Shown: positions 1,403 to 22,556 of the stretch, piece by piece
Numbering within the stretch: position 1 is the stretch's first letter
Layout: every line of letters starts with the position of its first letter
Source of the DNA: a virus
IMG/VR virus record: IMGVR_UViG_3300027902_000028
Span: 1 to 22,556 of that record
DNA: 22,556 bases
Reading direction: 5' to 3' (one strand)
The notes under the pieces: generated by a model
The model's database searches: none
The model's input: the letters and a program-made list of their open reading frames with translations, nothing else
What the model was told of the DNA's origin: nothing
Translations under genes and position numbers: made by a program

Positions 1403-4400
1403 CTATTGTAGTACGATTGATCTGAAGTCAGATACTCGGGGAACCAGTAGCGGATCGGCACTCAACATAACAATCTTGATAGCATACTTAATGAAGTTAG
1501 TATAAGTAACTCCACCAGAGTTGTAGTAGATTGCCTGTGTTGCACCAGTCGCCCCAGACGCATAGGGTAAGAACTGATATTCAAGGAACTGAGTTGGATC
1601 AGTAGAATAGGTAGATGTCGCAGGAGTTACCTGCTGCATCAGAGTCCAATTCTTTGAGGCCAGTGTAGAAGAATCATCAGCCGACAAAACCTTGTAGTAA
1701 ACAAGGACGTTTGAGTTAGCAGGTTTATTTGCAGTCAGATAAATCTTGATGTAGGATGAATTGGTACTAAGCACCACTGGACGGGTGATGTACTTGGCAT
1801 AGGCACCACCACCAGTCGGTCGAGTCTCATCCAGAGTAATATCATTCACAATACCAGATGCCCCTGTGGAACCAATTGTCGATCCATTGTATCCACGAAT
1901 AACAGTCAGGTTAGTTGCATTAGCGACATTACCACCAGAGACAACCTGCATAAATTCAGCACCAGGACCAGTAGCTCCGGTGAAGTTTAGAATATCATTG
2001 TTATTGATTGTAAGAGCATTGGCAACAGGAATGATTGTTGAAAACCGATTCAGTAGTGCCAGAGCACCAGTGGCCGCAGGAGTTGTGCTATTGTAGCCAC
2101 GAACTACTGTGATACCAGTCGCACCCAGCGCACCAGTGATATTGATCTGTTCCGCACCATTGATAATAACACCAGAGGTAGGAGTCGAAGAACCAAAGCT
2201 AGTCGCACCAAGTTGCTGAACAACACCAGCACCTGTTGCAGCCAGAGCACCAACAATCGTGATACCAGTCGAACCCACATCAGCAGTAAGAGTTGTAGTA
2301 AATCCAGATACATTATTGACTACGTTCTGGACGGCAATAACTGACTGACGAGTTGCATTGAGCACCGGAGAAACATACTGAGAAGTCGTAGCACAGGTTA
2401 CCTGTTTACGGAATGATTCTCCAGCAGTCACTACCTGATAAGCACTCGAAGGATAGGCAAAGTTCTTATTGGTTGGTAGTGTGGTATATGATCCATCAAT
2501 AACACCAGGACCAGTAGATCCTTTGATTGCCTGAACGATTGATGTGGAGGAGAACGGATTGTATGATTCATCAGGAACCATAATCACATTAGGACGAATC
2601 ACTCCCTGAGGTTTCCGATAAAAGGTGATCGGAGTTCCTGAGGGAATCGAGTAGTTCAGTGTGTTTGATAGTGTGATCGACCCAGCGGTGACTGATCCTC
2701 CGGTGATTGTGGTAGAAGAAGGAACCGCACCAGTCGCTCCAGTCGAACCAACAATGGCACCATACACCAGACTCGGAGCCATAATATCAGTGAAGTATAA
2801 CGTGGCCCCAGTAGAACCTGCTACTGTATTGATTGTGATGATATTATCAGCCGCAGTGGGAACACCACCAGAGCTATCATAGTCACTCCAGGTTGTTACG
2901 AAAGGCGCAGCGGGATTGAACTTGCAGTAGTATAGATTGAATGCAAGATCCGTAGTAACATCAGCCGTCCAGGAAGAAGCATTCTGGGTTCTGAAGATAT
3001 TACCAACATAGGGTCTCTGAGAGATCAGGGTCGAGGTACCGATTTGTTTCTGACCAACCACAGCAGCCCAGGGTGCATACAGATTAGAATTTGCTATCAG
3101 AACGATACAGTATTCGCCCGGCTTCAGATATACAACATTCGGAAAGGTTACAGTTGTTGCCACAGTTCCGGTTGTTGATGTATTAACCGAAGCCGCAGAG
3201 ATGGTTACTGTACTTAGAATATTTGTGGGTGAAGGATATCCATTAGAAGTATCTCGAATCTGTACTGTAAGAGGCAGAGTCGGATCCTTGGTTGCAAAGA
3301 ACAGATCAGCCTTGGAAAGGAATATGCCTTCAGGATAATTCTTACCATCAATATAGAATGTCTGAGCCAGAGGATAGATCTTTGTCTGGGGTTGATTCTG
3401 AGACAAGGACTGAGAAGAAGTAGCATCAACCAGGGCCAGAGGAGTGGCCAGATTCAAGGAAGGATCGGCAAGACCCTGAACCTTATAGGTTGTCTGACAA
3501 CCAGTAGACTCAGCAGTTCTGGTACCATTAATATTATCAGTAAGAAGGAAAATATTAGAACCAGTGTAATATGCACCCAGAGTGATCGCAAAGGTTCCAG
3601 ATACAGATCCAGCAGCATTAGTTGTTAGTGCTCCACCCAAGGTTCCGCCAGTCGGAGTGACACCAGCAGTCGCAGTCTTACCATCGAAGAATGGATATAC
3701 TCTGGTAAATGGTTTAAGACCCACAGCCGAGAATGTCAGAGTCCGTGAACGAATGAACTGAGTCATCGCAATATTGGTAACCATATTACCAATCTGATAT
3801 TGATTCAGACCAATCGGAGGAGGCACCGGAACATTAGTCGATGAAGTTACTGCATTGGTTACTGAGCGAGGAACTGTTGTAATATTGGTAACATAAGTTG
3901 GTTCTGTATATAGATTCCAGTAACCAACAATATCATTTGGATCAGAAGTGAGGAAGGGGCCTTTTCTAACAGCAACAGACGTGGTGGCTATGGCCTCACT
4001 GTGGCCGGAAAATATTGCCAGGGGACCGAATAATTTATCCGCCGTGCTACCCGGAGTTATGGGTTGTAGACCATAGACAGAACCCGTGGCATCGGCTCCT
4101 CTGGTCGTTGTTGATACTGAATCATACTCTGTGGTGTTCTCATATGATGTTGTTGTGTGTACACCATACCAGAGATTATTCCACTGATTGTATAACGACC
4201 CATAAGGATTGACTGCACCCGGATGGAAGTTATCATAGATGCCATTGGGACTTGTGAGGTTGATAGGACCAACCTGAATGTCATACCAAGTATCATTGTT
4301 CGGTGTGATAGTAAGACTACCAACCCAATCAAACACCGAGAAGGGATTGAGATTGATTGGAGTTGTGGCCTGAGGCTGAGATACTACGGTATTCGAATCA

Positions 4401-19998: not shown

Positions 19999-20598
19999 AT
20001 GGCATTCAATGTAACCGACATAATCCAGAGTGTTAATACACATGGTGTTCTCAAACCCTCTAAATTTGAGGTGATAATCAGCGGCAATGATACTCTGACT
20101 GTACGTTGCATTGCCGCACAGATTCCTGGACTCACCATCAACACCACAGACTTCAAGTTATATGGTGGCATGCCTGTACTCAAAGTTCCCACATCCAAAA
20201 CCTATACTGATCTTAGATTAACATTCTTAGCAAGATCGGATTCTAATGACAGGTATTTCTTCGAGAATTGGTTCAATCGAATATCCAATTTCTCAAGCAA
20301 CACTGTTGCATACTATAATGATGTTGCACAGGACATCACAATCAATGTGTATGATGAATTCAATAAGACAAAAACATTCAATGTGACAGCTGGTCTTAAA
20401 GGTGCACCTCTAGATCCTGGTACAAACCAAGGAACCACAAAAGATAGCATTGCATACTCAGTAAAGGTTCTCAATGCTATTCCTATAAGTCTTGATGAAG
20501 TAGATATATCCTGGGCAGAAACCGATAGACTGATTGAATTCGCAGTTACTTTCTCGTACGAACAATTACAATTGGCAAACAATAAAATAATGATCTAA
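19999..20598 (+). CDS. Tail-tube family protein (gp19-like; possibly a gp54-type initiator)
   Basis: This is a 199-residue protein of the T4 gp19 tail-tube fold. The family pattern is present: GVLKPSKFEVIISG (residues 16-29) as first strand, CIAAQIPGLTI (37-47) with the conserved AxQxPG turn, LKVPTSKTYTDLRLTFLARS (61-80) and the helix DRYFFENWFNRIS (84-96), then strands ITINVYDEF and YSVKVLNAIPISLDEVDISW (about 152-171). Length matches cyanophage gp19 (about 200) better than T4 gp19 (163). In many T4-like genomes gp19 lies beside gp18, but here it lies beside gp4 and the tape-measure block, so it may be a paralogue acting as tube initiator (the missing gp54) instead of the main tube. The start ATG lacks a ribosome site and coincides with the predicted transcription start. 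Confidence 0.75.
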   Translation: MAFNVTDIIQSVNTHGVLKPSKFEVIISGNDTLTVRCIAAQIPGLTINTTDFKLYGGMPVLKVPTSKTYTDLRLTFLARSDSNDRYFFENWFNRISNFSSNTVAYYNDVAQDITINVYDEFNKTKTFNVTAGLKGAPLDPGTNQGTTKDSIAYSVKVLNAIPISLDEVDISWAETDRLIEFAVTFSYEQLQLANNKIMI

Positions 20599-20612: not shown

Positions 20613-21335
20613 ATGGCACTACCTAAACTGCAACATCCCACATTTGAAGTGAAGCTTCCTTCTACTCAGAAGTCTTTTATCTTTCGTCCCTACACAGTAA
20701 AGGAGCAGAAGATTCTTCTGATGCTCCAGGAAACAAAGGAACCCGAAGAACTATCCAGATGTGTCAAAGATCTGATTGAATCCTGTTGCACCGTAGACAT
20801 CAACACAGATAAGTTGACATACTTTGATCTTGAATATATTCTACTTCGTCTTCGTTCCAAGTCTGTGGGAGAAATCTCCTCTTTGGCATTCAGATGTAAT
20901 AATCAGGTAGCAGACGAAGCCTGTGGCACTGTTAATAAGATCGAACTTAATCTGGAAGATATTCAGGTAGACTTCTCAAAAGCCAAGAGTCAGGAAATTC
21001 AATTACAGGATACGATCATTATCAAATTGGGTTATCCTTCAATCAAGTCTGCCAGGTTACTCGAACAGTACAACTCGGAGCGAGACCCCAAGATTCTCAT
21101 CGAAGCAATTGCCAATGATACTCTGACCGTAGCAGATCAGGAAAAGATCTATGATGACTTCACCAAAGATGAGTTGGTTACATTCCTATCCGAGTTGAAC
21201 CTAACATCATTCCAATCTATTCTGGAATTCTATGTGAATGCTCCCAAGCTTCGGAAGAGTATTGATTTTACCTGCAGGAAGTGTGGGTTCAAGGATGTGA
21301 TTGTTCTGGAAGGTCTTACTGATTTTTTCGTCTAA
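20613..21335 (+). CDS. gp26-like baseplate hub/tail assembly chaperone, zero-frame product of 240 residues
   Basis: This is a member of the T4 gp26-type family (T4 baseplate protein family), in the genomic place of the tape-measure chaperone. The N-terminus LPKLQHPTFEVKLPSTQKSF and the following FRPYTVKEQKILLMLQE (residues 24-40) are typical. Four cysteines, Cys95 (FRCNN), Cys104 (EACG), Cys221 and Cys224 (FTCRKCGF), could form a zinc site joining distant parts; T4-like relatives often have a CxxC near the end. The length is near T4 gp26 (208). The start has a good GGAG 7 bases before the ATG. The last codons GAT TTT TTC contain a -1 slippery heptamer, and slippage would extend the protein by 61 residues in place of its last Val (see the separate site and the small frame downstream). 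It precedes the probable tape-measure gene, as chaperones do in tailed phages. Confidence 0.82.
   Translation: MALPKLQHPTFEVKLPSTQKSFIFRPYTVKEQKILLMLQETKEPEELSRCVKDLIESCCTVDINTDKLTYFDLEYILLRLRSKSVGEISSLAFRCNNQVADEACGTVNKIELNLEDIQVDFSKAKSQEIQLQDTIIIKLGYPSIKSARLLEQYNSERDPKILIEAIANDTLTVADQEKIYDDFTKDELVTFLSELNLTSFQSILEFYVNAPKLRKSIDFTCRKCGFKDVIVLEGLTDFFV
21323..21329 (+). promoter_or_regulatory. Probable programmed -1 ribosomal frameshift site (T TTT TTC)
   Basis: The heptamer T TTT TTC is in the correct phase for the X XXY YYZ rule: the zero-frame codons are TTT TTC, and after slipping both tRNAs re-pair with TTT TTT. The zero frame ends two codons later at 21335. GGAAGG at 21308-21313 lies 9 bases upstream, the spacing at which an internal Shine-Dalgarno stimulates slippage in E. 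coli dnaX. The -1 frame has no stop from the site to 21514. No strong downstream hairpin was found by eye. Confidence 0.72.
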
Positions 21336-21355
21336 TTCTTAATAATGAAACGTTG

Positions 21356-21514
21356 ATGAATTACTATTTGAGTAATTTTACTATGATGCAGTTCTACAAG
21401 TATTCTCTGAGTGAACTTGAAAATATGTACCCATGGGAAAGAGAGATCTATATTTCTCTGTTGAACAAACATATCGAAGAAGAAAACGAGAGAAGAAAAA
21501 ATGCCAAGCAATAA
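21356..21514 (+). CDS. Small frame of 52 codons; probable C-terminal part of the -1 frameshift fusion
   Basis: This frame encodes MNYYLSNFTMMQFYKYSLSE and goes on with LENMYPWEREIYISLLNKHI, followed by a charged end (EEENERRKNAKQ). The Y-S-L-S-E-L-E-x-M-x-P-W-E-R-x-I-Y core resembles short proteins found between the gp26-like gene and the tape-measure gene in T4-type phages, and the second half of G/GT-type chaperones. No ribosome site precedes its ATG. The frame is open upstream and is entered directly by a -1 slip at 21323-21329, which adds the residues RLILNNETL before this Met. The complete fusion would span 20613-21514 and have 300 residues (239 zero-frame plus 61). I therefore read it mainly as the T part of the fusion; independent translation from 21356 or from the double ATG at residues 10-11 is the alternative. 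Its stop overlaps the next gene's start by 14 bases. Confidence 0.75.
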   Translation: MNYYLSNFTMMQFYKYSLSELENMYPWEREIYISLLNKHIEEENERRKNAKQ

Positions 21515-22556
21515 AGACACAAACAAAAAGCTACCGGAAATTCTGGATAAGTTTGCATCTAATTCAGAAAAAGCAACTAAGCAACTCGGAGAAATGTCTT
21601 CTCAGCTTTCAGCATTTGTGGATATGCTCTCGGAGAATATTCAGAAAGAGTCCCGCAGAAAAGACACCGAGGATAGACGTAGGGAAAAGGCTCGAGCAGT
21701 ACGAGCGGAGAGAGATGCAGAAAGAGATATAGAAAGAGCAGAAAATAAAGCAGAACGAGAAGCAGAAAAGAAAAAGAAAACTGATGATGCTGCAGCAAAT
21801 AAAGCAGAACGAGAAGCAGAAAAGAAAAAGAAAGCTGATGATGCTGCTGCAAATAAAGCAGAAAAGAAAAAGAAAGCTGATGATGCTGCAGCTGCTGAGT
21901 TACAAAAAACCCAGAATGAGTATGCCGAAGCAGTAAAGGGTTTGACTCAGCTAGATAAAGATGAATTAAAAAAAGCGAAACAAAAAGCGAAACAAAAAGA
22001 ATCCGACAAATTAAAAGAACAGCAAAAAGAACGACAAGAAAAAATTGGCAAATTGAAAGAAAAGGGAACACCAATTCTTGATATTGCCAATAATAACTTT
22101 TCTAGCGGCAATATTCTTGGTGGATTATTCGCAAGTATCTTTGCAATAAAAGATGTTTCGAATAAAAGGAAACTATCTTCTTTAGAGAAAGATGAAAAGG
22201 AATACAACGAACAGGAAGAAGATAGAAATAATCAAGAGAAGGAAGACCAAGAAAAAGAAACCGAATCTGATCTAAAGCAAAAAAGATTAGAAGCAAAGAA
22301 GAAGTTACAGGAAAGTGTCACTAAACTCCAGGGCAGTGTACAACCTGCTGCTTCTGTGAGCCCAAGTAAAATCGCTAATCCTGAAGATCAGGTCATTGCT
22401 GAGACAGTCAAGTTAAATGATGAAGACAAGGTCAAGCAAAGCCAGGAACAAACAAAACAGTTAGGTACTTTAGATGATAACATATCCAGAATCTGGACGG
22501 ATCATCTGCAGGTTACTGTTGCAGATATCTCAGATCCTGCTATTGATAAACTCAAG
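21501..22556 (+). CDS. Probable tape-measure protein, N-terminal 352 residues (partial)
   Basis: An open frame starts at the ATG at 21501 and continues past the right edge. AGAGAAG lies 6 bases before the ATG, and the start overlaps the stop of the small frame by 14 bases, so coupling is likely. Residues 1-50 are helical. Residues about 50-185 are an extremely charged Lys/Glu/Ala/Arg coiled coil, including tandem repeats at 82-131. Residues 203-216 (GNILGGLFASIFAI) form a short hydrophobic segment. Another charged helix follows (about 224-275). At about 276-300 comes a Ser/Pro/Ala-rich linker. The segment from about 330 (IWTDHLQVTVADI) is less biased. Position directly after a frameshifting chaperone gene is where tailed phages encode the tape measure, which sets tail length inside the tube. 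The name rests on position and coiled-coil character, not on a recognised motif; another long internal virion protein is possible. Confidence 0.6.
   Translation, partial: MPSNKDTNKKLPEILDKFASNSEKATKQLGEMSSQLSAFVDMLSENIQKESRRKDTEDRRREKARAVRAERDAERDIERAENKAEREAEKKKKTDDAAANKAEREAEKKKKADDAAANKAEKKKKADDAAAAELQKTQNEYAEAVKGLTQLDKDELKKAKQKAKQKESDKLKEQQKERQEKIGKLKEKGTPILDIANNNFSSGNILGGLFASIFAIKDVSNKRKLSSLEKDEKEYNEQEEDRNNQEKEDQEKETESDLKQKRLEAKKKLQESVTKLQGSVQPAASVSPSKIANPEDQVIAETVKLNDEDKVKQSQEQTKQLGTLDDNISRIWTDHLQVTVADISDPAIDKLK
21744..21893 (+). repeat. In-frame tandem repeat, 54 + 54 + 42 bases
   Basis: Two 54-base units (21744-21797, 21798-21851) encode NKAEREAEKKKK(T/A)DDAAA almost identically. A third, shortened unit (21852-21893) encodes NKAEKKKKADDAAA, having lost 12 bases (four codons, REAE). 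The copies differ by only a few bases, so the duplication looks recent. It lies in the coiled coil of the probable tape-measure gene. Confidence 0.9.

Follow-up and report, generated by a model that had tools for sequence, protein, structure and literature searches.

Does the gp26-like gene of this uncultured phage encode a single protein that ends at its stop codon, or does the small reading frame behind it supply the tail of a second, longer form? The window, by which we mean the whole 22,556-nucleotide stretch of viral DNA that was analyzed, carries a zero-frame gene of 240 codons whose 3' end reads GAT TTT TTC GTC TAA, and direct reading places the heptamer T TTT TTC there in exact slip phase, as an earlier reading made from the sequence only had claimed. 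That sequence-only reading set the heptamer two codons before the zero-frame stop (21333-21335), but a single sense codon, GTC, separates them. A -1 frame opens directly after a TGA at 21320-21322 and meets no stop until 21512-21514; it passes through codons for RLILNNETL and then enters a 52-codon frame with an ATG at 21356, just as had been described. The predicted products are a short form of 240 aa and a fusion of 300 aa. The window's 16 main genes comprise 7,356 codon positions, among which this heptamer is the single in-phase occurrence of TTTTTTN, and because it is also kept in relatives we regard the slip site as more than chance. Very probably, one gene yields tail assembly chaperones of two lengths through a programmed -1 slip on T TTT TTC; the analysis shows sequence anatomy, conservation, homology and fold, and from these we infer that ribosomes slip here, at what rate, and that the products act as chaperones. 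The features of the locus are collected in Table 1.

Table 1. Features at the putative frameshift locus and related loci (window coordinates unless a locus is named).
Feature	Position	Strand	Basis or scope
Tail tube protein gene, upstream	19999..20598	+	phrog_45, E 4.6e-30; PF06841, E 1.5e-6
Short form (TAC-N, gp26-like), 240 aa, zero frame	20613..21335	+	PF12322, phrog_150, AlphaFold2 model, fold matches
Shine-Dalgarno-like GGAAGG, proposed stimulator, 9 nt 5' of heptamer	21308..21313	+	direct reading; synonymous-codon test across the family
Slippery heptamer T TTT TTC, slip phase	21323..21329	+	direct reading; uniqueness in the window's genes; conservation
-1 frame, predicted C-terminal extension (TAC-C, gp51 C-terminal domain); fusion 300 aa	21323..21514	+	open frame, phrog_634, purifying selection, T4 gp51 alignment
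Probable tape measure gene (coiled-coil), 3' neighbor, cut by the window end	21501..22556	+	charged residues; relatives' counterparts
Loci with -1 domain and no canonical heptamer	L038:3200-3260, L039, L144, L145, L147, L150, L152		Ackermannviridae and some Vibrio relatives

Both frames belong to the gp26/gp51 family. The zero-frame protein matches PF12322 T4_baseplate at 165 bits, well over the curated cut-off of 24.5 (E 2.7e-48), and phrog_150 'baseplate hub' (E 5.6e-53), while the 53-codon part of the small frame matches phrog_634 'baseplate hub assembly catalyst' (E 2.5e-19) and additionally the last 35 positions of phrog_150. The closest named relatives of the zero-frame protein are cyanophages at about 37% identity or less, and the window thus derives from a divergent, uncultured T4-like phage. 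T4 gp51 (249 aa), which is encoded in one frame, aligns along its length with the predicted 300-residue fusion (E 1e-8), and the alignment crosses the junction (DVFKLLVNPDEI versus DFFRLILNNETL) into the C-terminal domain. On the phrog_150 profile, gp51 covers positions 13-280, whereas gp26 ends at 235. In a 2010 review, gp26 and gp51 were described as hub assembly chaperones, with gp51 essential and its function unknown (PMC3004832).

The chaperone gene lies between the tail tube gene and a gene that is probably the tape measure, judging from its composition and its counterparts. This downstream gene starts inside the -1 frame, giving a 14-base overlap, and 43% of the residues of its protein are charged. 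Its counterparts in relatives are long; two score above the Pfam cut-off for an SLT transglycosylase domain, another has a sub-threshold glucosaminidase match, and such domains are common in tape measure proteins. In Cr30, the annotated tape measure is found one gene further on. The earlier claim that a tape-measure-like coiled-coil gene follows directly therefore holds for the presence of a charge-rich gene at 21501, but the part of its protein that precedes the end of the window gave no direct hit to a tape measure family. Within this gene, window positions 21740-21900 encode near-identical AEREAEKKKKADDAAANK-type repeats, a low-complexity coiled-coil stretch that is possibly a length-variable part of the tape measure.

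To the fold of the short form we applied an AlphaFold2 model built from 70 window and contig sequences (mean pLDDT 92.6). The first-ranked Foldseek match in the PDB was 2ob9, the HK97 tail assembly chaperone (E 0.28, probability 0.72), and VIA-align over residues 1-94 gave 3fgx (Z 8.2), 2ob9 (Z 7.4) and 3klu (YqbN; Z 6.7), with the next row at 4.5; all three match residues 1-87. We take YqbN and probably 3fgx to be prophage proteins of the tail assembly chaperone kind. The scores for 2ob9, 3klu and 3fgx are each modest alone; what is meaningful for this predicted structure is that at least two tail assembly chaperone entries stand in the top three, a result that supports a TAC-N fold. When the family profile was run against PDB sequences, no hit reached a meaningful E-value.

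The sequence-only reading had proposed aligning related phages to see whether the heptamer and the -1 frame are conserved. Loci were gathered from viral contigs and annotated phages, and the C-terminal domain was placed by profile searches, an alignment of the C-terminal domain only being too diverse for scanning contigs. Relative to the gp26-like gene, this domain was assigned to the -1 frame in 120 of 120 usable loci and never to +1 or 0; one of these loci, L117, is cut off and has a C-domain score of only 6.7 bits. Thinning left 101 divergent representatives, and a canonical heptamer just 5' of the stop is present in 98 and absent from 3, so that both features were found to be kept. The heptamer is TTTTTTC in 72 representatives, TTTTTTT in 21, TTTTTTA in 4 (where Phe-Phe becomes Phe-Leu) and AAATTTT in 1. 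Across the 97 TTTTTTN cases, the P-site Phe is always TTT and the preceding codon always ends in T, with TTC making up one third of Phe codons elsewhere; the chance of this pattern would be about 10^-37 if residues were fixed and lineages independent, and shared descent makes it less extreme. The lineage of L023 (positions 3208-3214) and L024 has A AAT TTT in place of T TTT TTC, which is also a canonical slippery site, and keeps the -1 frame.

The -1 codons that precede any possible start of the small frame are under purifying selection in diverse relatives, where the nine codons right after the slip have a pN/pS of 0.53, versus 0.80 and 2.63 in the other phases, and the following thirteen have 0.29. 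Within the window's own small clade, the first nine codons gave about 0.95, a value that is not informative.

The proposed stimulator GGAAGG does lie nine bases 5' of the heptamer, as stated from the sequence. Synonymous codons 5' of the site were shuffled, and pairing with the anti-Shine-Dalgarno was compared. Over 98 representatives, the real sequences pair better than the shuffles for 8-mers whose first base lies 14-18 nt 5' of the heptamer (Stouffer -6.7, inflated by shared descent), and GAG is used at the Glu position in 30 of 63 cases versus 446 of 2,104 elsewhere (Fisher P 7e-6, inflated in the same way). The Shine-Dalgarno-like stimulator is supported at the level of the family, but it is not significant in the window alone, where 31% of synonymous sequences do equally well. 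RNA structure 3' of the site is a weaker trend in the family than this element: none stands out in the window (z -0.23), the family mean folding z is about -0.8 just 3' of the site versus about -0.2 upstream, and strong 3' stem-loops can be formed in several relatives. In relatives the folding z dips again, to about -0.9, some 220-240 nt 3' of the slip site, close to where the downstream gene begins.

Existing annotations treat the small frame differently. The records examined either list it as a gene of its own, 'gp51-like' or hypothetical, or omit it, and the C-terminal frame is without any annotation in Cronobacter phage LPCS28, Aeh1, DSL-LC03 and CC2 (L034, L035, L043 and L044). The cyanophage and Vibrio records would have it a free 'gp51-like baseplate hub assembly catalyst', translated either from a start of its own or by ribosomes that terminate and reinitiate close to the gp26 stop, and the window does offer TTG 21353 and ATG 21356 about 20 nt past that stop. 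These first possible starts, however, have no Shine-Dalgarno match (+0.4 kcal/mol), which agrees with the earlier statement that the small frame has no ribosome site, and independent translation was rejected after a scan of starts and Shine-Dalgarno matches in 97 representatives. A start with a Shine-Dalgarno match occurs in only 4 of the 97; in the stretch searched, 66 lack ATG, and 34 lack ATG, GTG and TTG alike. As the -1 codons ahead of any start are also conserved as protein, a free small protein is unlikely; a separate gene would moreover leave the heptamer unexplained and sits poorly with T4 gp51 being a fusion of the N- and C-terminal parts, and we give it very little credence.

The same fusion could arise without any ribosomal slip if RNA polymerase slipped on the run of six to seven T, producing mRNAs with a changed number of U. 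The site is indeed a T run, but six T is short for slippage by bacterial RNA polymerase, the phase of the run relative to the codons is fixed across the listed loci, the TTTTTTA and AAATTTT variants obey the ribosomal rule, and codon choice 5' of the site favors anti-Shine-Dalgarno pairing, which acts on ribosomes; we hold this explanation to be slightly less probable still. A sequencing error or a decayed pseudogene would look alike in one genome, where a one-base indel suffices, yet the identical frame relation recurs in 120 contigs and annotated phage records, and with this conservation the explanation is refuted, its chance being practically nil.

The programmed ribosomal slip is thus the reading that we retain. 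The canonical heptamer, the open -1 frame and their conservation fit a two-form gene whose long form would arise from a -1 slip shortly before the zero-frame stop, and the earlier proposal of 240- and 300-residue chaperone forms from one gene is supported by conservation, T4 gp51, the predicted fold and the tape-measure-like neighbor. Most ribosomes would stop at 21333 and give the 240-residue short form. A minority would slip back one base on T TTT TTC, with the Phe-Phe tRNAs re-pairing to TTT TTT, and would continue to the 300-residue form with its C-terminal domain. The Shine-Dalgarno-like element 5' of the site, plus a 3' stem-loop in some relatives, probably raises the slip rate. Lambda G/GT suggests a division of labor in which the short form would cover the next gene's product, the tape measure protein, and the C-terminal domain would bring in tail tube subunits.

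Several relatives have the C-terminal domain in the -1 frame and no canonical heptamer, namely members of the Ackermannviridae (Vi01, KWBSE43-6, phiDP10.3, KNP4 and YC) and the Vibrio phages K489, K393 and SUMAE. The site near the stop in these phages is N NNT TTC, with ATT, GTT, GCT or CTT before TTC, and the U_UUC tetramer is the sole part shared; in Salmonella phage Vi01 the site reads GAA ATT TTC ATT TAA. Since minimal -1 sites are Z_ZZN tetranucleotides, per a recoding review, single-tRNA slippage at the U_UUC tetramer is possible in these phages. Tentatively, and with somewhat more doubt than confidence, we suggest that the slip site of T4-like chaperone genes behaves as a cassette that can evolve, in which the internal Shine-Dalgarno element is selected in the family, the heptamer may be reduced to U_UUC in the Ackermannviridae while the -1 domain stays, and part of the family would slip with a single matched tRNA and another stimulator.

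T4 itself appears, from its sequence, to divide the short and the long form between two genes. Its gp26 resembles the window's short form and its gp51 the long form in length, domains and alignment, but the two are encoded by separate genes, gene 51 lying on the opposite strand to gene 26, and gene 26 has no slippery heptamer. The 3' end of T4 gene 26 (L032:5803-6429) reads AAA GAG TTC TTT GAG TTA CTA TAA; it retains the E-F-F-E residues but codes the two Phe as TTC TTT, which leaves no slippery site in a phage whose gene 51 provides the long form.

Frameshifting of the T4-like chaperone was already described in 2022, and our main statement is not new. Vladimirov, Gautam and Davidson reportedly named T4 genes 26 and 51 as a pair and found frameshifting to be conserved in several T4-like groups. 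Two later papers cite this work (Virology 2022), one for slippery sequences in the TAC-N genes of the T4-like group (PMC12846349) and the other for the pairing of a short gene with a fused long gene in some T4-like phages (PMC10885494). The window likewise has a slippery sequence in its TAC-N gene but comes from a divergent, uncultured lineage with at most 37% identity to named phages in this protein, and it adds such a member to the known frameshifted chaperones. The earlier remark that this is not a routine annotation is accordingly right about the records, where the small frame is separate or unannotated, but the phenomenon had been published for T4-like phages. Our additions are small: the breadth of the survey, and a test of the stimulator by means of synonymous codons. 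Strong comparative evidence indicates that the small 'gp51-like' ORF annotated behind gp26 in many marine T4-like phages is no gene of its own but encodes the tail that the frameshift adds to the chaperone.

The E. coli dnaX cassette has an internal Shine-Dalgarno-like element about 9-10 nt 5' of its heptamer, a geometry that the window shares; the window differs in having no strong 3' stem-loop, though several relatives can form one. In lambda G/GT, P2 E/E+E' and their relatives, the gene flanked by those for the tail tube and the tape measure has a -1 slip close to its 3' end and gives a short and a long form (PMC5009743). The window's sequence is unrelated to these, and its short form is longer (240 aa), with a Cys-containing second half. 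Its heptamer, U UUU UUC, stands in place of G GGA AAG. The window's gene is nevertheless like them in lying between tail tube and tape-measure-like genes and in its two predicted forms. The find links gp26 and gp51, long known as T4 'hub' proteins, with lambda G/GT.
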